NCBI RefSeq assembly: GCF_006175995.1
Contig: NZ_VDMB01000005.1
Location: 35,296 to 99,295, forward strand
Origin: Desulfobotulus mexicanus
GTDB lineage: Bacteria; Desulfobacterota; Desulfobacteria; Desulfobacterales; ASO4-4
DNA: 64,000 bases
Direction: 5' to 3'
Part shown: positions 34,383-59,102 of the stretch, one piece after another
Position numbering within the stretch: position 1 is the first letter of the stretch
How the letters are laid out: each line of letters opens with the position of its first letter
Program-made: the position numbers and the translations under genes
The notes under the pieces: model-generated
Database searches by the model: none
The model's input: the letters and a program-made list of their open reading frames with translations, nothing else
What the model was told of the DNA's origin: nothing

Positions 34383-34659
34383 TCAGCCCGCCTGCAGCGC
34401 CATCTGCTTTCTCAGATAATAGTCATAGCTGCCTTCGTAGGGAATCATACGGCCATGGTCAATTTCAAAAACCCGGCCCACAAGGGAGCGGAGAAAGTGG
34501 CGGTCATGGCTGACAATGAGCACCGTTCCCTCAAAGGCCTGCAGGGCGTCCAGCAGTACCTCCCGTGACTGAATGTCCAGATGGTTGGTTGGCTCATCGA
34601 GAATGAGGAAATTTAAGGGCCGGGCCAGCAGGGTAGCCAGAACCACCCGGCTTTTTTTT
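34383..34659 (-). pseudogene. duplicated 3' end of the ABC-F gene
   Basis: Encodes the last 90 residues of an ABC-F ATPase (LDEPTNHLDIQSREVLLDAL.. to MALQAG) without the rest. The DNA from 34387 to 34657 matches 41112-41382 with four differences in 271 bases. It breaks off inside a T-run next to the chrB stop. It marks one edge of a 6.7-kb module. Confidence 0.9.
34387..34657 (-). repeat. direct repeat, left copy (271 bp)
   Basis: About 98.5 percent identical to 41112-41382 in the same orientation, at an offset of 6725 bp. Recombination between the two would excise chrB to MFS and leave the ABC-F gene with either tail. Confidence 0.93.
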
Positions 34660-34679
34660 CTGTGCAGGAAGAGAATCTC

Positions 34680-35678
34680 TCAGGCATTTCTTCCTGAACG
34701 CTGGAAATGGGCATACAGGGTATCGAGAACCCTGCTTCCGTCTTCAACCCGTTTTTCATCCATATCCGTTTCAAGGCATATGCCGTTCAGCAAGGCAAGA
34801 ATCCCTGGGGATTCGGGCCGTGAAGGAGCGTCAGCGTCAAGATCCATGTCATGTATGATCTCACCGAGTACGGCAAGGGCTGCATCTGAATCGAGATGAA
34901 AGCGTTTCAGCATTACCTCGAAAGTGCACATGGGGCCTTCATGGGTAAAGTCCCCTTCGACCATATCAAAGAGGATATCCTTTTCTGTTTTTTTCCGGGC
35001 ATCAAAACGAAATGCTGCTTCCGGATCGATGAAGCGCCTGATAAGCCATGCCGAGGCAATGCGATCGACATGGACACCGGAGCGTGTCACCCATGTTCTC
35101 CCCCTGTAGTCCTTGGGAGAAAGGACTTTTTCTTCCGGTCTGCTCTTCCGGGTTCCAGCCGCAAGCCATTCCTCAAAGGCGGCAAGCATACCCTCTATGG
35201 TGCCCCTTCCCGGAGTGCCGAAGTAGTCGATGCGGAGAATGTTTTCATAGCGGGTTTTCAGATCCTGATTCCACCCCATCACACCTTCTGTGCACAGGGT
35301 TTCTGCAGGAGCATTCAGACTTTTGAAGGCAGCCTGAAACTCAGCTGCAAGATTTCTGTAGTCGGTTTCGCGGGCTTCGACAAAGAGCTTGCGGATGTCC
35401 GCATCGGAATATTCCCCCCCATCAATGCCGTCGAACATGGCCCGGCAGACGTAGGCTTTGCCTCCTCCCTGAACAATTTCTTTTGCAAGCCAGATCAGGT
35501 TCTCCCGCTGGGGTTCGGCATCGGGCAGGATATAAACGGAATTTTTGAGGGCAACAGCCCCGAGAGCCGCCAGTCTGCGTGAAACTTTTGCACGCAGGTA
35601 AGGCGGTTTGGGCGGAATGTTGTGGATGCACAGCAGCCAGGGCTGAGTCATGTTGCCCGTAGGCTTATCGTTTTGCAT
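34680..35678 (-). CDS. chrB: chromate resistance protein ChrB-like
   Basis: 332 residues with both ChrB regions: N-terminal RRLAALGAVALKNSVYILPD and C-terminal GRTWVTRSGVHVDRIASAWLIRRFIDPEA..F, plus FTHEGPMCTFEVML. ChrB proteins act in chromate resistance, as regulators or helpers of the exporter ChrA. There is no chrA here; an MFS exporter is encoded nearby instead. The start at 35678 is set by GGGAG, giving a 14-bp overlap with the rhodanese gene. Confidence 0.85.
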   Translation of the reverse strand: MQNDKPTGNMTQPWLLCIHNIPPKPPYLRAKVSRRLAALGAVALKNSVYILPDAEPQRENLIWLAKEIVQGGGKAYVCRAMFDGIDGGEYSDADIRKLFVEARETDYRNLAAEFQAAFKSLNAPAETLCTEGVMGWNQDLKTRYENILRIDYFGTPGRGTIEGMLAAFEEWLAAGTRKSRPEEKVLSPKDYRGRTWVTRSGVHVDRIASAWLIRRFIDPEAAFRFDARKKTEKDILFDMVEGDFTHEGPMCTFEVMLKRFHLDSDAALAVLGEIIHDMDLDADAPSRPESPGILALLNGICLETDMDEKRVEDGSRVLDTLYAHFQRSGRNA

Positions 35679-35973
35679 GGGTCTCCCATGCTGCCAATCC
35701 ACCCTCAAGGATACGAACCTTCAGCCCTCTGGCTGTGAGTGCGGTGTAAACAGAGCTGCTGACCGAACCTCCCCGCACACAGTAGATGGCTACAGGTTTT
35801 TCTTTGGAAAGCCCGTCGGCCCACAAGTTGACATCTTCGGGCGGATACCAGTCCGCATTTTTTATCCCTGAAGGTGAGGCTTGCTGGTCTTCGATGCGTC
35901 TCACATCAAGCACGGTGATAGTGTCAGCGGAAATCTGCTGTTCAAGTTCAAGGGGAGAAATGAAATAAGGCAT
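35665..35973 (-). CDS. single-domain rhodanese
   Basis: 102 residues, one rhodanese domain. Active-site loop YCVRGGSVS with the sulfur-accepting Cys, and LDVRR near the start. No signal peptide, so cytoplasmic. Lies 15 bp after the PEP-synthase-like gene and overlaps chrB, forming one operon. Confidence 0.9.
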   Translation of the reverse strand: MPYFISPLELEQQISADTITVLDVRRIEDQQASPSGIKNADWYPPEDVNLWADGLSKEKPVAIYCVRGGSVSSSVYTALTARGLKVRILEGGLAAWETHAKR

Positions 35974-35988
35974 GACGACGGTTTCCTT

Positions 35989-38900
35989 TCAGGAGGTGAT
36001 ATGAAAAATCTGTGGCATTGTGTCTGGTCTTTCCTGGACGAATTCATTGAAAAAAGTTACCGAATCCGCTTTGGTCCAAAGCCCCACATAACCGTAAAGA
36101 TTGGTACTTCCGCTGTATTCAAGAATGGGATGATCCTCAAGGAATGCCAGAACCCGGTGGCCGGATATTTCCACCTGCAGCTTGTGCCATTGATTTCCAG
36201 CAATGGGGGTACAAGTACTTGCCCGTTCTATGCGCCTGCCATTTTTGAATTCAAAAAGAATAGCATTGTCTTCCAGTGCGTTGATGCGAAAAACAAAATA
36301 ATTGTCCCAGTCCCGGATGGCAAAGGCCAGTCCGCCAGCCTGATCGATGACTCCAGACAGTGGCTTAACCCTGACCCGTGCTCTGCCATCGTTCATCTTA
36401 CTGTCCATGGCGGCAACCAGCGGGAAGTAATAGTAAGCACCAATGTTGTCCAGCATTTCCTGATAACGTTTGCCCATAAGGTTTGTCATGGCCTGTGAAA
36501 CACCGGTTGAGATCCGTGAACCGAAGGCGGAACCGTTCTGGAGTATTCCTGTTTCCAGATTCAGCTCAGCAGTTTTCCAGTTTCCGGTGATCAGATAAAA
36601 ACCCTTTGGCGCATTCTCGTTTTGACTGTTCAGGAGCTTATCGTCATCCTGGAAAAAAGAATCCGCCAATGCAGCCACCTGTTCGAGAGTGTTCTGTGTA
36701 AGGTCAAGCATCTGGCTTGTACCCAGCAGGTACCCGAGTTTTTCAAGGGACTCTTCCATGCGGTTTTGATCCAGCCGCGTGAGGCTTGCTTCAATGAAAT
36801 CCCCTTTGGTGCTGGTTTCAAATCCAAGCCGGTCAAGCACGGCAGCCATGTATTGAATTCGCAGACAGCGGCTGTAATAGGCATCCGCTCCGCCGGAAAA
36901 TTGCAGGTTGATATAATTGTAGGCCGGATCTGTTCCGCACAGTGTATCCACTGTAACGGAGTGGTAGTTGAAGCGGGTACCAAGATTCATATAATCGGCA
37001 GAGACAAGAACATAGCTGGCTCCACCCTGAGGGTTCTTTTGGGGTATGGCCTGACTCACTATGCGGGGTATGAAGTTACGGGCAGAGGTTGTGATGGTCT
37101 TTGTCCAGTTGAGACGGGGATGGGAAAGTCCCCGCCATAGGGCGCGGAAAGGGCGGCTGACGACATCATGCACATTGAGGTCATCACATGTTGTTAAACC
37201 CTGGCGCAGTCCATTACCTAGATTAAGAGCGTGAAGATCTATGGGGATGCTTGTTCTGAGGTGTACCGCACCCTGAAGATGTTCCACGGACTCCCTGAAA
37301 TGGAACATCTCACGTATGACCATTTCATTACAGTAGCAGATAATGTCATGAACGGTTCGGCACTCTTCCTGGGTGAATTGCGGAAAGTCAGGCTCTGGCA
37401 GATTAAGAGGCGAAATCAAATCCAGCAGGCGTTGCAGTCTCAGGTGAATTGGGCTTGCGAAGATGGGCCGCTTCACCGGTCTCATGCCTTTCGCTAATTC
37501 CTCCACCACACCATCATAAACCCGCATTTGACTGGCCCACAGAGTGATTTCCTGGCCGTCTGCAAGGATGGTGGTGGCCGTCTCTGTATCAAAAAGGGCG
37601 GGTACACTAAATTCCCGGGCCACTGAGGCCAGATGGCTGGCAACACTGCCCGTATCGGTGATGATACCTCGTATTTTGCTCATCCATGGGGTGATGGAAG
37701 TGGACGCTGTGCGGGCCACCAGAATGGTGTCCGGATAAGGATTCAGTAAACCACCTTCGGCTTCCGTATTCGTCATCACCAGTACCCGTCCGGACACGAC
37801 ACCACCTGCAGCACACTTCCCGCCTTCGATGAGCAGGGGATGGTCTGCATACTCAGTAGCAGTTCCATATTCTCTTTCATGTGTCCCATCAGCTATGATC
37901 AGGGGCCGGACCTGTAAAATAAACAGACGATGATCATGATCCAGTGCCCATTCTATATCCAGAGGCCGCTGGAAAGAATCTTCCAGAACTTTGGCGGATT
38001 CCCACAGCTCACGAAGAAAGAGTGTTTCAGATGGGAAAGGAGCGCTTGTATCAGTTCCACCCGTCTCCAGGACGTTAAAGGTGGATTTTTTGATTCGGTA
38101 CGTACGTTGCGGGGAGATGTTTCCGGCGACCAGGGTATCTCCAAGGCCATGGACGGCACTGATCCGGATGGATTGACGATCTTCACCGACGGGGTCGGCG
38201 CTGTACAGCACACCGCTGAAAAGTGGCTGAACCATTTTCAAAACCAGGACGGCCATAGGGGTTTCGTGCTCGTCCAGTCCGTGATGCAGGCGATAGGAAA
38301 GTGCTGATGCCGAGTACTTGCTTGCCAGCACCTGTTTGTAAGCCTCGGATAATTTTTCAATGGGTACGTTTAAGACCGATGTGTATTGTCCGGCAAAGGA
38401 AATTTCTCCATCCTCTCCGATGGCACTGCTGCGTACTGCCAGATGTATATTGCCTGCTGTGTCACTGCTTAACGTGGATGTTGCAGCTTCCATAGCCTTG
38501 AGAATCTTTGCTGGCAGGGGGCTTTCAATAATAAGGGCCTGAATTTTTTTCCCGACGGATTCTATGGATGCCGGGTCATCTGCGGCAAGATGCCGTAAGG
38601 CATTGTCGATTTTATCCAGGAGGCCGTTTTCCTGTAAAAAAAAGTGAAAAGCGGAGGTGGTGATGGCAAAACCTGTAGGTACCGTAAGAGCCAGCTCGCG
38701 TTGTATGCGGGCAAGGTTGGCCGCTTTGGCTCCCACAATGCGGGACTGAACTGCCCCAATCTGGGAGATTTCCAGGGTGAGGGGATCTGTGGAAGTCGGG
38801 GAAGCAAAGTGCAGCTCATCTTTTACACTGCGGTAAAGACTTCGAAAAATAGCGGATAAGTACTCATATTGCTCCGTTGATAGCATGGACAATATCTGTA

Positions 38901-39129
38901 CCATTGATTCGACTTCGGAGAAGAGATCGTTACATTTATGTGCCACCATCTGCATGGTAAATGGCTGGCTGCCATAGTAAGTCCGATCAAGATCAGCCAT
39001 ATGACTGAGCGCAATACGGTGATGATCGAGAAATGACCTGAAGTGATGATAGCGGACAAGATACTCCGATTCCGCATCGGGCAGCAGACGACAGACATTT
39101 CCGTCTTCATTTTTTTGGAACCATACCAT
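35989..39129 (-). CDS. PEP-synthase-like phosphotransferase with an unusual C-terminus
   Basis: 1046 residues. A helical region (1-125) leads into the PPDK/PEP-synthase ATP-binding domain (about 130-440: VRSSAIGEDGEISFAGQYTSVLNV, then DIEWALD..LFILQVRPL). The swivelling His domain follows (ITDTGSVASHLASVAREFSVPAL, catalytic His). The usual PEP/pyruvate TIM barrel is absent. Instead there is a region of about 300 residues I do not recognise, then a LamG/DUF1080-like beta-sandwich (about 870-1046: GLAFAIRDWDNYFVFRIN, YGYVGLWTKADSVTFFNEF). It probably makes a phospho-His from ATP and passes phosphate to an unknown acceptor. GGGAGG precedes the ATG. Confidence 0.82.
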   Translation of the reverse strand: MVWFQKNEDGNVCRLLPDAESEYLVRYHHFRSFLDHHRIALSHMADLDRTYYGSQPFTMQMVAHKCNDLFSEVESMVQILSMLSTEQYEYLSAIFRSLYRSVKDELHFASPTSTDPLTLEISQIGAVQSRIVGAKAANLARIQRELALTVPTGFAITTSAFHFFLQENGLLDKIDNALRHLAADDPASIESVGKKIQALIIESPLPAKILKAMEAATSTLSSDTAGNIHLAVRSSAIGEDGEISFAGQYTSVLNVPIEKLSEAYKQVLASKYSASALSYRLHHGLDEHETPMAVLVLKMVQPLFSGVLYSADPVGEDRQSIRISAVHGLGDTLVAGNISPQRTYRIKKSTFNVLETGGTDTSAPFPSETLFLRELWESAKVLEDSFQRPLDIEWALDHDHRLFILQVRPLIIADGTHEREYGTATEYADHPLLIEGGKCAAGGVVSGRVLVMTNTEAEGGLLNPYPDTILVARTASTSITPWMSKIRGIITDTGSVASHLASVAREFSVPALFDTETATTILADGQEITLWASQMRVYDGVVEELAKGMRPVKRPIFASPIHLRLQRLLDLISPLNLPEPDFPQFTQEECRTVHDIICYCNEMVIREMFHFRESVEHLQGAVHLRTSIPIDLHALNLGNGLRQGLTTCDDLNVHDVVSRPFRALWRGLSHPRLNWTKTITTSARNFIPRIVSQAIPQKNPQGGASYVLVSADYMNLGTRFNYHSVTVDTLCGTDPAYNYINLQFSGGADAYYSRCLRIQYMAAVLDRLGFETSTKGDFIEASLTRLDQNRMEESLEKLGYLLGTSQMLDLTQNTLEQVAALADSFFQDDDKLLNSQNENAPKGFYLITGNWKTAELNLETGILQNGSAFGSRISTGVSQAMTNLMGKRYQEMLDNIGAYYYFPLVAAMDSKMNDGRARVRVKPLSGVIDQAGGLAFAIRDWDNYFVFRINALEDNAILFEFKNGRRIERASTCTPIAGNQWHKLQVEISGHRVLAFLEDHPILEYSGSTNLYGYVGLWTKADSVTFFNEFVQERPDTMPQIFHITS

Positions 39130-39222
39130 GAGATACCTCCCACCCGACGAAACTCAAATTATCATTATACTTTTTTCAGACGTAAAAGGCAGGCCGGAAG
39201 CAACCCGGCCCGCCTGAATCTC

Positions 39223-39501
39223 TTACCCACCGAAATAGCTGAGGCAGTCTTTCATATTCGCGACATGGCTGTCAATCTGCTTGCCGAAGCGGCATTTCAG
39301 GTCATCCACCAGATGATAGACATATTCCTGAGCCCCTTCCTCACCATATTTTTCCCGGAACATGGCAGCGTTGATGAGCACCCTGGAAAAATCATGACGC
39401 TCATATTTGGTCTCCGGACTGTCAATCCATTCGTGGACCTCGCGGTACTCTTTGCCGGTTCGGGCCAGGCTTGCGGCAATGTGTTCGTTCAGTTCAGGCA
39501 T
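39223..39501 (-). CDS. small unknown protein heading the chrB operon
   Basis: 92 residues, acidic, soluble, rich in His, Glu and Asp (EVHEWIDSPETKYERHD, YHLVDDLKCRFGKQIDSH). AAGGAG lies seven bases upstream. Looks mostly helical and ends YFGG. I do not recognise the family with certainty; His/Glu spacing would allow metal binding. 93 bp upstream of the PEP-synthase-like gene. Confidence 0.7.
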   Translation of the reverse strand: MPELNEHIAASLARTGKEYREVHEWIDSPETKYERHDFSRVLINAAMFREKYGEEGAQEYVYHLVDDLKCRFGKQIDSHVANMKDCLSYFGG

Positions 39502-39583
39502 TTTTTTCTCCTTAGTTCAGGGGGGGAGGATTGTTTTTTATTGAAGGACCGGGAACAGATTTTTCTTTATCACAGTTGTAATT

Positions 39584-39649
39584 TATCATGATACAAAAGT
39601 ATGTCAATTGACATTTTTTGGGTGGGGGTATATCACAATTGCGATTGTG
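39584..39649. promoter_or_regulatory. palindromes and promoter between chrB operon and MFS gene
   Basis: Three inverted repeats in a row: TATCATGATA (39584-39593), the perfect 14-mer ATGTCAATTGACAT (39601-39614), and CACAAT-TGCG-ATTGTG (39634-39649). A plus-strand promoter candidate overlaps them: TTGACA (39608), 17 bases, TATCAC (39631). The palindromes would thus cover -35 and -10, as for a repressor. The 14-mer also presents TTGACA to the minus strand. Confidence 0.6.
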
Positions 39650-39697
39650 GCTTTTTCAGGGCTGCAACAACAGGACTCTCCACGGTACGAGGTTTCA

Positions 39698-40900
39698 ATG
39701 AATGCATCGTTTATGACCGCACTGTTTTCCGTTGGTTTTATGGCCAGATTTTCCTATGCACTGGCACGCAATCCGGTTCTTCCGCTTTTTGCCCTCTATC
39801 TTGGAGCAGGGCCGGAGGCCATTGGTCTTGCCGTTGGTATTTCAACTGTGACAGGCATCCTTTTCAAAATGCCTGCCGGAGCGCTTTCAGATATCATTGG
39901 CCGCAGAAAGACCATGCTGGCTGGACTGTGTTTCTTTGCTCTCATCCCCTTCGCGTACTTTTTCATTTCAAGCTATACCATGCTGGTGGTGGTTCGCTTC
40001 CTCCACGGCTTTGCCACGGCCATTTATGGCCCTGTGGCCATGGCTGTGGTTGCGGATGTGGCAGGACCCAAAAAGGGGGAGATGCTCTCCTGGTTTTCAT
40101 CTGTCACCATCATGGGAACCCTTGCCGGAGCCCCTGTCGGTGGCCTGCTCCTGTCCCTTATGGGAGGCGCACATGGAGCATCAGATACCACCTTTCATGT
40201 GATTTACGGCATTGTGGCAGCCACAGGGGTTCTGGCGCTGTTGCTTGGCATGGCCTTTCTTCTTAAGGATGAAAAAAAATCACAGGATCAGAGTACTGAG
40301 CCATGGTTCAGGAAGTTCATCTCAGGTATCCGGGAGGTGAGCAGGGATCGCAGGGTTATCGCAGCTTCAGGCATGGAAGGGGTGCAGAACATGGCCATGG
40401 GGGCCCTGGAGGCATTTCTGCCCATTTACGCCGTTACGGTGGTAGGACTTTCCGCATTTGAGGCAGGGCTTCTCTGGGCAGGGCAGATGATCACGACCAT
40501 GCTGGCCAAACCTCTCATGGGACGTTTTTCCGATGGACATGGGCGAAATGGCATTATAGTTACAGGCATGCTGTGCTGCGCCGCACCCTTTGCCCTGATT
40601 CCCACTCTGACCAGTTTCTGGTCATTGATGGCAGCCTGTCTGGTCTTCGGTCTGGGTGAGGCTCTGGTCACATCCTCATCCGCTGCTCTGGTGGCGGATC
40701 TTTGCAGGGAAAAACACTATGGAACAGCCATGGGCGTATTCGGAACCCTGTATGATGTGGGCCATGCCTCAGGCCCCATCGTCAGTGGAATTCTTGTGGG
40801 GATGCTGGGATATGGCTGGGCCTTTGGCATCATGGCGGCTGTGCTTGTGCTAGCCATTCCCTTCTTCCTTGGGGCGATGGGAGGAAGGACCGCTGCATGA
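39698..40900 (+). CDS. MFS exporter
   Basis: 400 residues, twelve transmembrane helices. Motif A GALSDIIGRRKTM after helix 2 and a related GRFSDGHGRNG after helix 8. Start at 39698 is preceded by GAGG. Likely a drug or anion exporter; substrate unknown. Divergent from the chrB operon with shared palindromes, so probably the transport part of that module. Confidence 0.88.
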   Translation: MNASFMTALFSVGFMARFSYALARNPVLPLFALYLGAGPEAIGLAVGISTVTGILFKMPAGALSDIIGRRKTMLAGLCFFALIPFAYFFISSYTMLVVVRFLHGFATAIYGPVAMAVVADVAGPKKGEMLSWFSSVTIMGTLAGAPVGGLLLSLMGGAHGASDTTFHVIYGIVAATGVLALLLGMAFLLKDEKKSQDQSTEPWFRKFISGIREVSRDRRVIAASGMEGVQNMAMGALEAFLPIYAVTVVGLSAFEAGLLWAGQMITTMLAKPLMGRFSDGHGRNGIIVTGMLCCAAPFALIPTLTSFWSLMAACLVFGLGEALVTSSSAALVADLCREKHYGTAMGVFGTLYDVGHASGPIVSGILVGMLGYGWAFGIMAAVLVLAIPFFLGAMGGRTAA

Positions 40901-41101
40901 ACTCAGTGACTCGACTTTGGCCTTTCCTGAGCTCGCCCTGTCGGACAGGTGCCCCGCTGTTTGTATGTAAAATGGAGTTATAGAATGCCATCATGGTAAA
41001 TGTAAAAAGAAGCTTTTTGATTATCCGGAACGGATCTGTCTTCTGGACCTGGCCTCCGTCTGTCCTGAAGGCCAGGCAAAGGCCAGAGCACGGCAAGAAG
41101 C

Positions 41102-42739
41102 TTAAACACTCCCCGCCTGCAGCGCCATCTGCTTTCTCAGATAATAGTCATAGCTGCCTTCGTAGGGAATCATGCGGCCATGGTCGATTTCAAAAACCCG
41201 GCTCACAAGGGAGCGGAGAAAGTGGCGGTCATGGCTGACAATGAGCACCGTTCCCTCAAAGGCCTGCAGGGCGTCCAGCAGTACCTCCCGTGACTGAATG
41301 TCCAGATGGTTGGTTGGCTCATCGAGGATGAGGAAATTTAAGGGCCGGGCCAGCAGGGTAGCCAGAACCACCCGGCTTTTTTCTCCACCGGAGAGCTTGT
41401 CTATCCTTTTGTAAACATCATCCCCCTGAAAGAGAAAGGCAGCGCAGAGGTTGCGGATCACCCCCAGTCCTGCGGTGGGAAGAACGTCCTGAACCGTATC
41501 CAGCACGCTTTTTTCAGGGTTGAGAATGTCCATGGAATGCTGGCTGAAATAGCCTGCGTGCACATTGGCTCCTATGGTAACCCTTCCCGCGCTGGGCTCG
41601 GTCCTTTGGGCCAGTACCTGTAAAAAGGTGGATTTGCCCGCACCGTTCACCCCAACCACAGCTACTTTGTCTCCCCTGTGTATCATCCCGGATATACCGC
41701 CAAAAACCGAGTGCTCTCCCCCTTCGGGCGTCTGCCAGGTTTTGCCGAGGTTTTCCATGGTAACCACATCGTCTCCGGACCGGGGCGGTGTCTCAAAGGT
41801 AAAACGGATTTTTTTCTGGTCCGGCGGAAGTACAATGCGTTCGATTTTTTCCAGTTTTTTCACCCTGGACTGCACCTGTGCCGCATGGGAGGCTCTGGCT
41901 GCAAATTTGGCTATGAACTCCTCTTCCTTGGCCAGCATGTCCTGCTGACGCTTGAAGCTGGATTCCAGCTGTTCCCGCCGGATTTCCCTTTCCTTTATAA
42001 AAAAATCATAATTGCCGGTGTAGGTGGTGGCCCCGCCGTTGCCGACTTCAATGATGCGGGAGACAATGCTGTTCATGAATTCCTGATCATGGCAGGTCAT
42101 GAGCAGGGCACCCTTAAAGGTGGAAGCCAGCCAGTTTTCAAGCCAGAGAATGGATTCCAGATCCAGATGGTTGGTGGGTTCGTCCAGAAGCAGCACATCC
42201 GGGTTGGTGGTGAGTATTTTTGCTAAGGCTATGCGCATCTTCCACCCGCCACTGAAGGCTTCCACGGGCCGGTGATAGGCATCGGGACCTATGCCAAGGC
42301 CAGTGAGCACACTCTGGGCGCGGGATTCCAGTTCATAACCGCCCTGATGTTCAAAGCTTTCCACCGCCTCGCCGTAGCGTTCCAGAAGTTCAGCCAGAGC
42401 ATTCTCATCCATGGGTTCCGCCATGGATGCTTCCATTTTTCTGATATTTTCTCCTAAGGAAACCACATCCCCCACCGCTGCCATCACTTCTTCCAGTGCG
42501 CTGCGTCCTGCCATGTCTCCCACATCCTGGGAAAAATAGCCGATGCGGATTTTAAGGCTCCGGGAAATGTCTCCGCCATCGGGCATTTCTTCCCCCATGA
42601 TCAGGCGGAAGATGGTGGTTTTTCCGGCACCGTTAGGCCCTACAAGGCCGGTACGGGTTCCGGGAAGAATCTGCAGGCTGGCATTGTCAAACAATACCTG
42701 ATTACCATGATGGCGTGAAATCCGATTCAGATGAATCAT
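41102..42739 (-). CDS. ABC-F family ribosome-associated ATPase
   Basis: 545 residues with two ABC domains: Walker A GPNGAGKTT and GVNGAGKST, signatures FSGGWKMR and LSGGEKSR, and two LDEPTNHLD motifs. A linker rich in charged residues lies between, and there are no membrane helices. ABC-F proteins act on the ribosome in stalled translation or antibiotic protection (Uup/YbiT type). Start at 42739 with AAGGAG. Its last 90 codons are duplicated at 34.4 kb. Confidence 0.93.
   Translation of the reverse strand: MIHLNRISRHHGNQVLFDNASLQILPGTRTGLVGPNGAGKTTIFRLIMGEEMPDGGDISRSLKIRIGYFSQDVGDMAGRSALEEVMAAVGDVVSLGENIRKMEASMAEPMDENALAELLERYGEAVESFEHQGGYELESRAQSVLTGLGIGPDAYHRPVEAFSGGWKMRIALAKILTTNPDVLLLDEPTNHLDLESILWLENWLASTFKGALLMTCHDQEFMNSIVSRIIEVGNGGATTYTGNYDFFIKEREIRREQLESSFKRQQDMLAKEEEFIAKFAARASHAAQVQSRVKKLEKIERIVLPPDQKKIRFTFETPPRSGDDVVTMENLGKTWQTPEGGEHSVFGGISGMIHRGDKVAVVGVNGAGKSTFLQVLAQRTEPSAGRVTIGANVHAGYFSQHSMDILNPEKSVLDTVQDVLPTAGLGVIRNLCAAFLFQGDDVYKRIDKLSGGEKSRVVLATLLARPLNFLILDEPTNHLDIQSREVLLDALQAFEGTVLIVSHDRHFLRSLVSRVFEIDHGRMIPYEGSYDYYLRKQMALQAGSV
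41112..41382 (-). repeat. direct repeat, right copy (271 bp)
   Basis: The intact 3' part of the ABC-F gene, matching 34387-34657 with four substitutions. Outside the block the flanks are unrelated. Confidence 0.93.
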
Positions 42740-42821
42740 TAAAAACTCCTTGGAAAATCCTGTGGCAGAGGCCAGATCAGGCTTAGTTTCTATTGACAGA
42801 AGAAGGCACACAGGCTGTCTG

Positions 42822-42892
42822 AAAAAAAATGCTATCCATAAAAAAAGGCAGGGATAAGCCTCTGCAAATGAAAAGCCTGCATGGGATAGCAT
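42822..42892 (-). promoter_or_regulatory. candidate attenuator hairpin in the ABC-F leader
   Basis: On the minus strand ATGCTATCC pairs perfectly with GGATAGCAT, which is followed directly by eight T. An inner GCAGG/CCTGC pair strengthens the stem. It lies 90-150 bases before the ABC-F start, so it would stop transcription unless disrupted. The leader is open in frame with the gene but has no ribosome site. Confidence 0.55.
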
Positions 42893-54754: not shown

Positions 54755-56560
54755 ATGTTACCCTCCCTGACATCAAAAAATATAAACCAGCGGGAAAGAA
54801 GCCTTGAAGCAAAGGCTTTTTTATCCTTTTTCAATGAGAAGATTCTGCCAAGCCGGCGTATGGCCGTGGCCTTCAGCATCTTTTTTTATGGGATTTCCGG
54901 TTTTCTGGATGCGGCCCTTCTGGAAAAAAGAGAATTGTATATTATCCTTTCCATCCGATACCTTGTCGTTATTCCTCTGGCTTTTCTGGCCCTCGGTTTA
55001 AGTTTTAAAGTAAAATGGGTGCAGCGTCATTTTGAACCCATTGTTTCATTTCTTCTTTATCTCTGTGCCCTGAGTATGATTCTCATGGTGGTCTTTGTGG
55101 AGAATGTCCATGTCTTGTCCCTGTACATGTTTGGTATTCTGCTGGTTATTTTTGTGGGATACAGCTTGCAACGGCTCTTTTTTTTCTGGGCGAGTATTAC
55201 GGGTGCTCTGATTCTTATTTCCTTTGTTGCTGCCACGCCCTGGATGTCCATGGAAAAAAACCATGTGACGACCTATGCCCTTCAGCTTTTCTGCGGGTAT
55301 GTGGCCAGCATCATTGGTGCCTATTTCATGGAATCTGTATCTTACAGTGAGTATCTTTCCCGGAAAGAAACGGAAGCACAGCGGATAAAGGTGGATGAGC
55401 TGAATGCGGGTCTTGAATTACGGGTAGAGGAAAGAACCAGAATTTATAATGAAAAAGCCAAAGAAGCCGAAAGGCTTCTGGAGCAGCAGCAGGTGGTGGA
55501 AAGAACCCTGCGCATGACGGAAAAACAGCACAGAGATCTTTTGGAAATAGTTGAAGATGCCTGCTTTGAACTGGATCTTGAAGGCCGGATTCAGTATTTC
55601 AACACGGCCCTCTGCCGCATTACCGGAAGACCCTCTTCTGAAATCAGGGCCAACCGGTTTTTCTTCTGGCTGAATGTAGATGATGCAACACTTCTCAGAA
55701 AACAGATGGAAAGCAAAGCCCATGTTGGCGGTACAGCCATTCTTTCACTGGACCTGCAGAAACCCGATGAGGATATTGTGTCTGTGCGGCTGAGCCTTTC
55801 TCCCATAGAAGATGGGCAGAGCCGTATTTCAGGATTTCGCTGTGTGGCCAGGGATACCAGTCGTGAGGTCAGGCTTAAAACAGAACTGAATACGGCCCGG
55901 CAGAATCAGAATCTTTCGGAAAATCAGCACTTAAAATTTCTTCGTCACATGGCCCACAGCCTGAGAACTCCCATGAATGCCATACTGGGTGGCCTGCACC
56001 TGCTTAAAGAGAACGGAGCTTCCCTGGTCCTGGGAGAAGCATCAGAACATATGCAGGGAGTTCTTGAGGATATTCAGGACTATATACAGCTGGCCGAAGG
56101 ACAGGGGCAAGCCAGACCTGTGGAAGAAAAAAGCAAGGTCCAAAGGCTCTCTCAGGAAGAGCGGAATGAAAAAATGTATCCCCTTATTCTTCTGGTGGAA
56201 GATAATATCATCAACCAGAAAATCACCATGAAACTTCTTGAAATAAAGAAATATACCCCTGACCTTGCGGAGAATGGCTTTCAGGCGCTGGAAAAACTTG
56301 AAAAGCAGAGCTATAATTTGGTCTTGATGGATGTACAGATGCCGGAAATGGACGGACTCACAGCCACCCGCAAAATCCGGGAAGGCCTTTGCGGAAAAGA
56401 GGCAGCCCTTACTCCCATTGTGGCCTTTACCGCCCACGCTTCTTCCCAGGACAGACAGGCCTGTCTGGATGCCGGAATGGATGATGTGCTGACTAAGCCG
56501 GCCAGGCCCGAGGGTCTGCAGAGCATGGTGGAAAAATGGCTAAGGCGGAAAGAATCATAA
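54755..56560 (+). CDS. hybrid histidine kinase paralogue lacking the ATPase domain
   Basis: 601 residues. Six or so membrane helices (35-200), a coiled coil (205-260), a PAS domain (about 262-380), then the dimerisation/H-box helix RHMAHSLRTPMNA (His intact). From QLAEGQ it jumps straight to ARPVEEK and the receiver domain (LVEDN, phosphoacceptor in LMDVQMPEMDG). The downstream paralogue has 158 more residues here, the complete HATPase domain. It therefore cannot phosphorylate itself alone. GGAGG precedes the ATG. Confidence 0.9.
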   Translation: MLPSLTSKNINQRERSLEAKAFLSFFNEKILPSRRMAVAFSIFFYGISGFLDAALLEKRELYIILSIRYLVVIPLAFLALGLSFKVKWVQRHFEPIVSFLLYLCALSMILMVVFVENVHVLSLYMFGILLVIFVGYSLQRLFFFWASITGALILISFVAATPWMSMEKNHVTTYALQLFCGYVASIIGAYFMESVSYSEYLSRKETEAQRIKVDELNAGLELRVEERTRIYNEKAKEAERLLEQQQVVERTLRMTEKQHRDLLEIVEDACFELDLEGRIQYFNTALCRITGRPSSEIRANRFFFWLNVDDATLLRKQMESKAHVGGTAILSLDLQKPDEDIVSVRLSLSPIEDGQSRISGFRCVARDTSREVRLKTELNTARQNQNLSENQHLKFLRHMAHSLRTPMNAILGGLHLLKENGASLVLGEASEHMQGVLEDIQDYIQLAEGQGQARPVEEKSKVQRLSQEERNEKMYPLILLVEDNIINQKITMKLLEIKKYTPDLAENGFQALEKLEKQSYNLVLMDVQMPEMDGLTATRKIREGLCGKEAALTPIVAFTAHASSQDRQACLDAGMDDVLTKPARPEGLQSMVEKWLRRKES

Positions 56561-56822: not shown

Positions 56823-59102
56823 GTGATCCCCTCCCTGACTTCAAAAAACGTAAGCCAGCAGGATAAATGCCTTGAAGCAAGGGCTTTTTTATCCTTTTTC
56901 AATGAAAAGGTTCTGCCTGCCCGGCGCATGGGTATTGCCTTTGGCATCTTTTTTTACGGAATCTTCGGTCTCCTTGATGTTGCACTTCTGGAAAAAAAAG
57001 AACTCTTCATTATCCTTTCCATCCGTTATCTTCTTATTCTTCCTCTGGCTTTTCTGGTTCTTGGCTGCAGTTTCAGAGTAAAATGGGTGCAGCGTCATTT
57101 TGAACCCATCGTTGCTTTCCTTATTTTTCTTTGCTCCCTGAGCATGATCCTAATGGTAACCCTTGCCCATGATGCCCATGGCTTATCCCATTATATGTTC
57201 GGTGTTCTGCTGGTCATTTTTGTGGGATACAGCCTGTTCCGGCTATTTTTCTTCTGGGCAGGCATTACGGGTGCTCTTATTATTATTGCTTTTTTGCTTT
57301 CCACGCCATGGCTGCCCATGGAAAAGACCCTGGTGATTGCCTATGCCCTTCAACTTTTCTGCGGGTATGTTGGCAGCATGATCGGTGCCTATGTCATGGA
57401 GACGGCATCCTACAGGGATTATCTTTCCAACATGGAGATGGAAGCACAGCGGAAAAAAGTGGATGGCCTGAATGCGGATCTGGAATTACGGGTAGAGGAA
57501 AGAACCAGAATTTATAATGAAAAAGCCAGAGAAGCCGAGAGGCTTCTGGAGCAGCAGCAGCTAATCGAAAGAACCCTGCGCATGACTGAAAAACAGCACA
57601 GGGACCTTTTGGAGATAGTTGAGGATGCCTGCTTTGAACTGGATCTTGAAGGCCGGATCCAGTATTTTAACACGGCTCTATGCCGTATTACCGGAAGGCA
57701 CCCTTCTGAAATCAGGGCCAATCGTTTTTTCTGCTGGCTGAATGTGGATGATGCCACACTTCTCAGAAAACAGATGGAAAGCAAAGCCCATGTTGGCGGT
57801 ACAGCCATTCTTTCCCTGGACCTGCAAAAACCCGATGAGGATATTGTGTCTGTGCGACTGAGCCTTTCTCCCAGAGAAGACGGACAGAGCCGTATTTCAG
57901 GATTCCGCTGTGTGGCCAGAGATACAAGTCGTGAGGTCAGGCTTAAAACGGAATTGAATACAGCCCGTCAGAACCAGAATCTTTCGGACAGTCACCACTT
58001 AAAGTTCCTTCGTCATATGACCCACAGCCTTAGAACCCCTATGAATGCCATACTGGGTGGACTGCACCTGCTTACTGAAAAGACAGAGGCATCCGTAACT
58101 CTTGGGGAAGCATCGGGGCGTATGCAGGGCGTTCTGGAGGATATTCAAGACTATATACAGCTGGCCGAAGGGCAGTGGGTTTCCCAGGAGGATATTTTTT
58201 CACCTAAGGAAGCAGGTTCTGAAATTTGTGCATCCTACAGTGTCTGGGCAGAAAACCGGGGCCTTGAATTTCATTTTGAAACACGCAACCTGCCGGATTT
58301 TCTACAGGGGGATGTCCGTTTTTTTAAGCGGATTCTCAATAAATTTCTGGATAATGCCCTTAGGTTTACAGAAAAAGGCTCCATAGATGTTTTTCTGGGA
58401 TGCAGAAACATAGCAGACATGCTCTGGCTTGTCATGGAGGTAGCGGATACGGGCTGCGGTATGGATGAAGTAAAAATAGCACATGCCTTTGAAGCCCCCC
58501 ACAGCATGAAGGGTGGAGAAGAGAATCAGAGTACCATGGGGCTGGGGCTGGCCTTTATCCATCTGATGACGGAACAACTGGAAGGAAATCTGCGTATCCG
58601 GAGTCTTCCGGAAAAAGGAACACGGATCATCTGTGAAATTCCCGTCAGAGAGGTCAGGCCTGTGGAAGAAAAAAACAAGGGGCAAAGGCAGTTTCAGGCA
58701 GAACAGAATAAAAGAAAGCAGCCCCTCATTCTTCTGGTGGAAGACAATATCATCAATCAGAAGATAACCATGAAACTTCTTGAAATAAACGAATATACTC
58801 CTGATCTTGCCGAAAATGGCATTGAAGCGCTGGAAAAACTTAAAAAGCAGAGCTATGATCTGATTCTGATGGATGTACAGATGCCGGAGATGGACGGACT
58901 CACAGCCACCCGCAAAATCCGGGAAGGTCTTTGCGGAAAAGAGGCGGCCCTTACTCCCATTGTGGCCTTTACCGCCCACGCTTCTCCCCAGGACAGGCAG
59001 GCCTGTCTGGATGCCGGAATGGATGATGTACTGACCAAGCCGGCCAGGCCTGAGGCTCTTCAGGCCATGGTGGAAAAATGGATAAGGCAGAAAGAATTAT
59101 AA
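56823..59102 (+). CDS. complete hybrid histidine kinase
   Basis: 759 residues. Same order as the upstream paralogue but complete: membrane helices, coiled coil, PAS, H-box RHMTHSLRTPMNA, ATPase domain (KFLDNALRFTEKG N-box, VADTGCGMD G1, MGLGLAFIHLM G2) and C-terminal receiver (LMDVQMPEMDG). Starts with GTG, preceded by GGAGG. 13 bp before ade, so likely cotranscribed with it. Confidence 0.93.
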   Translation: MIPSLTSKNVSQQDKCLEARAFLSFFNEKVLPARRMGIAFGIFFYGIFGLLDVALLEKKELFIILSIRYLLILPLAFLVLGCSFRVKWVQRHFEPIVAFLIFLCSLSMILMVTLAHDAHGLSHYMFGVLLVIFVGYSLFRLFFFWAGITGALIIIAFLLSTPWLPMEKTLVIAYALQLFCGYVGSMIGAYVMETASYRDYLSNMEMEAQRKKVDGLNADLELRVEERTRIYNEKAREAERLLEQQQLIERTLRMTEKQHRDLLEIVEDACFELDLEGRIQYFNTALCRITGRHPSEIRANRFFCWLNVDDATLLRKQMESKAHVGGTAILSLDLQKPDEDIVSVRLSLSPREDGQSRISGFRCVARDTSREVRLKTELNTARQNQNLSDSHHLKFLRHMTHSLRTPMNAILGGLHLLTEKTEASVTLGEASGRMQGVLEDIQDYIQLAEGQWVSQEDIFSPKEAGSEICASYSVWAENRGLEFHFETRNLPDFLQGDVRFFKRILNKFLDNALRFTEKGSIDVFLGCRNIADMLWLVMEVADTGCGMDEVKIAHAFEAPHSMKGGEENQSTMGLGLAFIHLMTEQLEGNLRIRSLPEKGTRIICEIPVREVRPVEEKNKGQRQFQAEQNKRKQPLILLVEDNIINQKITMKLLEINEYTPDLAENGIEALEKLKKQSYDLILMDVQMPEMDGLTATRKIREGLCGKEAALTPIVAFTAHASPQDRQACLDAGMDDVLTKPARPEALQAMVEKWIRQKEL

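Follow-up and report, generated by a model that had tools for sequence, protein, structure and literature searches.

A Dikinase–LamG Protein as an Unrecognised Component of a Chromate-Type Resistance Cluster in Desulfobotulus mexicanus

Chromate resistance is usually explained by efflux through ChrA, sensing by ChrB and reduction. In a stretch of Desulfobotulus mexicanus DNA of 64,000 nucleotides (contig NZ_VDMB01000005.1; the whole stretch is called the window below), a chrB gene lies next to genes for a rhodanese, a dikinase-type protein of 1046 residues, a small conserved protein and an MFS transporter. A sequence-only reading had proposed these five genes, all of which were found at 34680–40900, as a possible undescribed resistance system. 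This raises the question whether the locus is a new system or a known one with an additional member, and which task the large protein could fulfil in it.

Gene block and its insertion site

The block comprises the following features:

34680–35708, minus strand: open reading frame of ChrB (ChrB_N and ChrB_C domains), likely start at ATG 35678
35665–35973, minus strand: rhodanese, ChrE-like, active-site Cys65
35989–39129, minus strand: dikinase-type protein of 1046 residues with a CBM66/LamG domain
39223–39501, minus strand: conserved protein of 92 residues (RTGxxYxxxHxWxD..K..RH)
39601–39614, no strand: palindrome ATGTCAATTGACAT in the divergent promoter, made up of two TTGACA boxes placed back to back
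39608–40900, plus strand: open reading frame of the MFS transporter, likely start at ATG 39698

On the minus strand the genes for the 92-residue protein, the 1046-residue protein, the rhodanese and ChrB follow one another; the first two gaps measure 93 and 15 nt, and the last two genes overlap. This arrangement is operon-like, and the MFS gene is divergent from these four. On the minus strand of the window the TTGACA box of ATGTCAATTGACAT is located 16 nt from TAAATT. The starts of ChrB (ATG 35678) and MFS (ATG 39698) were corrected by sequence comparison with Nitratidesulfovibrio vulgaris (D. vulgaris) and are probably the ones in use.

Both the N- and the C-terminal domain of ChrB are present, with matches to PF09828 (1.6e-42) and PF20229 (3.7e-07) that pass the cut-off. 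R209, R216 and H256 are the counterparts, matched by spacing, of R180, R187 and H229 in the ChrB of Ochrobactrum tritici, which are required there for the chromate response (PMC3817168). The rhodanese reached 66 bits against the ChrE equivalog model NF033833, below its cut-off of 120, and is hence termed ChrE-like only. Its active-site loop, CVRGGSVS, is not of the Cdc25 type, ruling out the rhodanese as a cognate phosphatase. ChrA is not encoded in the block between the repeats described below; one copy was found elsewhere in the D. mexicanus genome on another contig. None of the five proteins was matched by PADLOC, and a reading as anti-phage defence was dropped.

The block is flanked by a direct repeat of 274 bp:

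34387–34660, no strand: left copy, original 3' end of the ABC-F gene, adjoining the deaminase gene
41112–41385, no strand: right copy, inside the intact ABC-F gene (41102–42892, minus strand)

The copies are identical at 269 of 274 positions (98%) and correspond to the 3' end of the ABC-F gene, with the whole block between them at 34661–41111. In two congeners (G001 and G002) the ABC-F and deaminase genes are immediate neighbours, representing the empty site, and neither of them contains the 92-residue or the dikinase–LamG gene. The flanking repeats together with the empty site show that the block arrived in one piece and did not disrupt the ABC-F gene. The repeats enclose no gene for an integrase or a transposase; a circle may have integrated by recombination in the end of the ABC-F gene.

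Elsewhere in the window, two adjacent and very similar hybrid histidine kinases are encoded on the plus strand (54755–56560 and 56823–59102). Judged by eye, the second (759 residues) contains what is apparently an ATPase domain, a stretch of about 158 residues that is missing from the first (601 residues).

Domain structure of the 1046-residue protein

The protein can be divided as follows, from its N-terminus onwards:

37897–38787, minus strand: ATP-grasp domain, residues 115–411
37492–37839, minus strand: phospho-His domain, residues 431–546
37633–37635, minus strand: codon of the phospho-His H499
36613–37491, minus strand: middle (presumed acceptor) domain, residues 547–839, without fold match
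35992–36612, minus strand: CBM66/LamG domain, residues 840–1046

The domains for ATP binding and for the phospho-histidine had been described as retained in the sequence-only reading, and Pfam (PPDK_N, 2.5e-69, residues 131–411; PEP-utilizers, 2.2e-17, residues 466–530) as well as structural alignments agree with this. In the AlphaFold2 model (pLDDT 87, pTM 0.83), whose residue numbers are, as in the alignment, the full-length numbers minus 1, residues 114–547 align with rifampin phosphotransferase (RPH, Z 37) and PEP synthase (Z 34), and H499 aligns with the phospho-His of both. The same reading had the pyruvate/PEP barrel replaced by another region and a LamG-like sandwich, which is likewise borne out: the full protein gave no match to the TIM barrel PF02896 at E values up to 0.1, and residues 838–1036 of the model align with the CBM66 structure 4azz (Z 24.1, rmsd 2.1, 158 residues), a beta-sandwich fold. 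A diverged TIM barrel in the C-terminal half had been named as a finding that would speak against the proposed system; it was rejected, as there is no PF02896 match and structure prediction shows an alpha+beta fold instead of a barrel.

For the middle region 547–839 an alpha+beta structure with an antiparallel sheet is predicted, and folded alone the domain still reached a pLDDT of 80. It gave no PF02896 match at E values up to 1, no Pfam match above cut-off and no Foldseek match at E below 0.001. VIA ranked red chlorophyll catabolite reductase first, at noise level (Z 5.8), and the profile search against the PDB yielded 2dcl alone with an unconvincing E value of 0.036. As modelled, the domain appears to be without a match to a solved fold, which is not proof of a new one.

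At 151 positions a residue is conserved in at least 95% of the full-length relatives. The D. mexicanus protein departs from 14 of them, its two nearest relatives from none. These deviations are unevenly distributed (Fisher p 8e-4): the ATP-grasp and His domains have none at their 70 conserved positions, the middle domain has 11 at its 54. Two of them, R598C and H601N, affect middle-domain residues that are invariant in the 75 other sequences; the invariant H594, D595, E602, H723, R757 and D777 are retained. The Desulfosudis orthologue has both R598 and H601. The front end of the enzyme is thus preserved and the presumed acceptor site is changed or decaying, so that this copy may transfer to its acceptor differently or no longer at all.

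Recurrence with chr genes and possible function

Full-length homologues were found by a search of genome contigs in Desulfobacterota, Nitrospirota and a few relatives of Rhodocyclales; they were recovered with an alignment as query, a single-protein query returning none. Among plasmid records there was no full-length homologue, 0 of them covering 80% of the protein. The LamG-bearing homologues, 51 rows, are set apart in the tree by a branch with good support (SH-aLRT 99). PEP/pyruvate-binding relatives of about 860 residues without LamG, sharing 30–36% identity over residues 24–830, are common in the order.

In the neighbourhoods retrieved, genes for ChrB, ChrA, the 92-residue domain or a rhodanese occur at 21 of 47 LamG-bearing loci versus 1 of 33 LamG-less loci (Fisher p 2e-5, a value to be taken merely as a guide since both sets consist of related sequences). 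The single LamG-less exception, L127, is cut short where its contig ends. Mapped onto the tree, the chr label requires 10 changes compared to 19.8 when shuffled. The association of the dikinase–LamG gene with chr genes is real, and the gene is found repeatedly in chr clusters of two phyla and of several clades. The ChrA proteins of related loci are genuine (PF02417 2e-76; TIGR00937 215 bits, cut-off 172). In Fundidesulfovibrio agrisoli (L122) a dikinase–LamG homologue is encoded close to a ChrA gene. All five kinds of gene, whose absence elsewhere had been named as an argument against a common system, occur together at L131 (ChrB, 92-residue protein, MFS, dikinase and rhodanese), with an MFS of a different subfamily. 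No chr gene was found in the stretch examined at 26 of the 47 LamG-bearing loci, many but not all of which are interrupted by contig ends, and none lies near the homologue in G302 (64% identity).

Two further arrangements were observed in these loci. The 92-residue domain is fused to an HD domain (TIGR00295-like) in L085, L087, L090, L095, L097, L104 and L166, and in L131 an HD domain of this kind is joined to a ChrE-like rhodanese. Stand-alone LamG proteins adjoin an ABC ATPase and permease in L166 (4731–5699), L182 (7078–7902), L181 (2261–3244) and L165 (9006–9857). Those of L166 and L182 sit within chr clusters (ChrB, ChrA, MFS, HD protein), and those of L165 and L166, the two sequences read, carry an N-terminal hydrophobic segment.

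In the dikinase family ATP phosphorylates a histidine, from which the phosphoryl group passes to an acceptor. We consider it likely, with a probability of roughly two in three (0.68), that a chromate-type oxyanion resistance cluster of the sort known from N. vulgaris plasmids was inserted here as one block and includes a phosphotransfer enzyme acting through H499 under chromate stress. The identity of the cluster is well supported; the catalytic step is proposed by analogy to the family. ChrB would sense chromate and control the divergent promoter, the MFS protein would act as exporter, and the rhodanese would handle thiol or sulfur chemistry. The 1046-residue protein would work like other non-pyruvate dikinases: ATP would phosphorylate H499, the His domain would swing, and the phosphoryl group would pass to an acceptor other than pyruvate at the middle domain 547–839. 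The CBM66-like domain would assist in binding or positioning this acceptor, which may be a constituent of the cell (a protein, a glycan or a small molecule) in the chromate-stress response rather than chromate itself. That the acceptor is not pyruvate, that it is located at the middle domain and that the step serves the chromate response is what we infer from these data.

In favour of this explanation are the common layout and sequence identity with the plasmid cluster including the shared palindrome (see below), the frequencies of 21/47 versus 1/33, and ChrA in homologous clusters. The conserved residues of ChrB, the 70 of 70 positions kept in the ATP-grasp and His domains and the retained middle-domain invariants point in the same direction. 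It is weakened by the loci without chr genes, G302 among them, by the missing ChrA and by the middle-domain changes.

Possible, although rather unlikely, is a regulatory role: the enzyme would place a phosphoryl mark on a protein or signal molecule, a cognate phosphatase would take the mark off again, and in chr clusters the enzyme would tune the stress response without acting on the anion. The LamG-less proteins of Desulfobacterota share the same core including the middle domain; they are encoded beside DSP-PTPases and two-component genes without linkage to chr. A DSP-PTPase gene lies directly downstream in about half of 30 such loci (e.g. L138 12517–13569), making a phosphotransferase–phosphatase pair possible, and NtrC-type regulators, histidine kinases and Usp proteins are found nearby. 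Moreover, an LMWP/ArsC-like or PP2C phosphatase adjoins some LamG-bearing genes. The D. mexicanus cluster, however, contains no phosphatase, the rhodanese loop being of another type than that of Cdc25, and N. vulgaris has the same rhodanese without a dikinase.

Sulfate reducers encounter many sulfate analogues, so the cluster might answer another sulfate-like or metal oxyanion (selenate, tungstate, molybdate or arsenate) instead of chromate. Some LamG-bearing loci have an arsenate-reductase-like gene and lack chr genes, which is consistent with this idea, but we regard it as unlikely, as ChrB, the ChrE-like rhodanese and the ChrA of related clusters all indicate chromate. Still less probable is a mere passenger that landed by chance in the chr cluster and is decaying in D. 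mexicanus. The absence of the gene from the N. vulgaris cluster and the 14 deviations compared to none in the two nearest relatives would fit; the recurrence across two phyla, the full-length open frame with in-operon spacing, the intact catalytic half and the stand-alone LamG proteins of other chr clusters argue against it. The model of the sequence-only reading, a toxic anion or drug phosphorylated as by RPH and exported by the MFS protein, draws on the structural proximity of the ATP-grasp and His domains to RPH and on the MFS gene, yet is very doubtful given an acceptor domain unrelated by sequence to that of RPH, a different domain order, the same MFS and ChrB in N. vulgaris without the enzyme, and a core family found in signalling instead of resistance contexts.

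Returning to the preferred reading of a chromate-type cluster with an H499 phosphotransfer enzyme, the recurrence of a large ATP-using phosphotransferase in chr clusters of sulfate reducers and Nitrospirota hints that the usual account of resistance lacks a step. With one gene and one active-site histidine, the protein offers a clear model in which to look for the acceptor used by a large family of uncharacterised dikinases. It is a speculative and rather improbable extension that the dikinase–LamG proteins are a new class of ATP-driven phosphotransferases with their own acceptor-domain fold, that through them the resistance of anaerobes to chromate (or a similar oxyanion) gains an enzymatic phosphorylation step, and that the D. 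mexicanus copy with its altered acceptor site has a different specificity.

Comparison with known systems

Similar to PEP synthase and pyruvate phosphate dikinase, the ATP-grasp domain of the 1046-residue protein is followed by the His domain, whereas the PF02896 barrel is replaced by the middle domain and CBM66. With RPH it shares ATP-grasp and phospho-His domains without a TIM barrel. There, the order is ATP, rifampin domain and a C-terminal His domain, in contrast to ATP, a central His domain with H499, a different domain and LamG; this difference had already been seen in the sequence-only reading, and the RPH model NF041857 gave 187 bits versus a cut-off of 999. The protein is therefore neither a PEP synthase, having no barrel, nor a rifampin phosphotransferase, from which order and middle domain differ. 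In open-licence full texts we found no paper linking chromate resistance with PEP synthase, pyruvate phosphate dikinase or PEP-utilizing proteins.

ChrB and a ChrE-like rhodanese are shared with the chr determinants of O. tritici TnOtChr and Cupriavidus (chrB, chrA, chrC, chrE, chrF). In comparison to these, the D. mexicanus cluster lacks ChrA, ChrC and ChrF and possesses MFS, the 92-residue protein and dikinase–LamG. Much closer is the cluster on the plasmids of N. vulgaris RCH1 and L2 (pDEVAL01, NC_017311; pDsulf-L2-1, NZ_CP116248), with the order MFS (divergent), 92-residue protein, rhodanese, ChrB and ChrA; its chrBA has been termed a chromate resistance operon (PMC10146906). MFS (79% identity), the 92-residue protein (84%), the rhodanese (55%) and ChrB (61%) have order and orientation in common with D. 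mexicanus. The same 14-nt overlap of rhodanese and ChrB is observed, provided that the D. mexicanus ChrB starts at 35678, and the palindrome ATGTCAATTGACAT is common to both while the rest of the intergenic stretch has diverged. In N. vulgaris ChrA follows ChrB and there is no dikinase gene, whereas in D. mexicanus this gene separates those for the 92-residue protein and the rhodanese, and ChrA is encoded outside the cluster on another contig. Order, identity and promoter thus assign the D. mexicanus cluster to a known kind. The proposal that no system of this composition had been described holds only in part: four of the genes are those of the plasmid-borne chrBA cluster, and what is new is the recurrent dikinase–LamG member. 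Rather than a wholly undescribed system, the locus represents a resistance cluster of a known kind that includes a component not recognised before.
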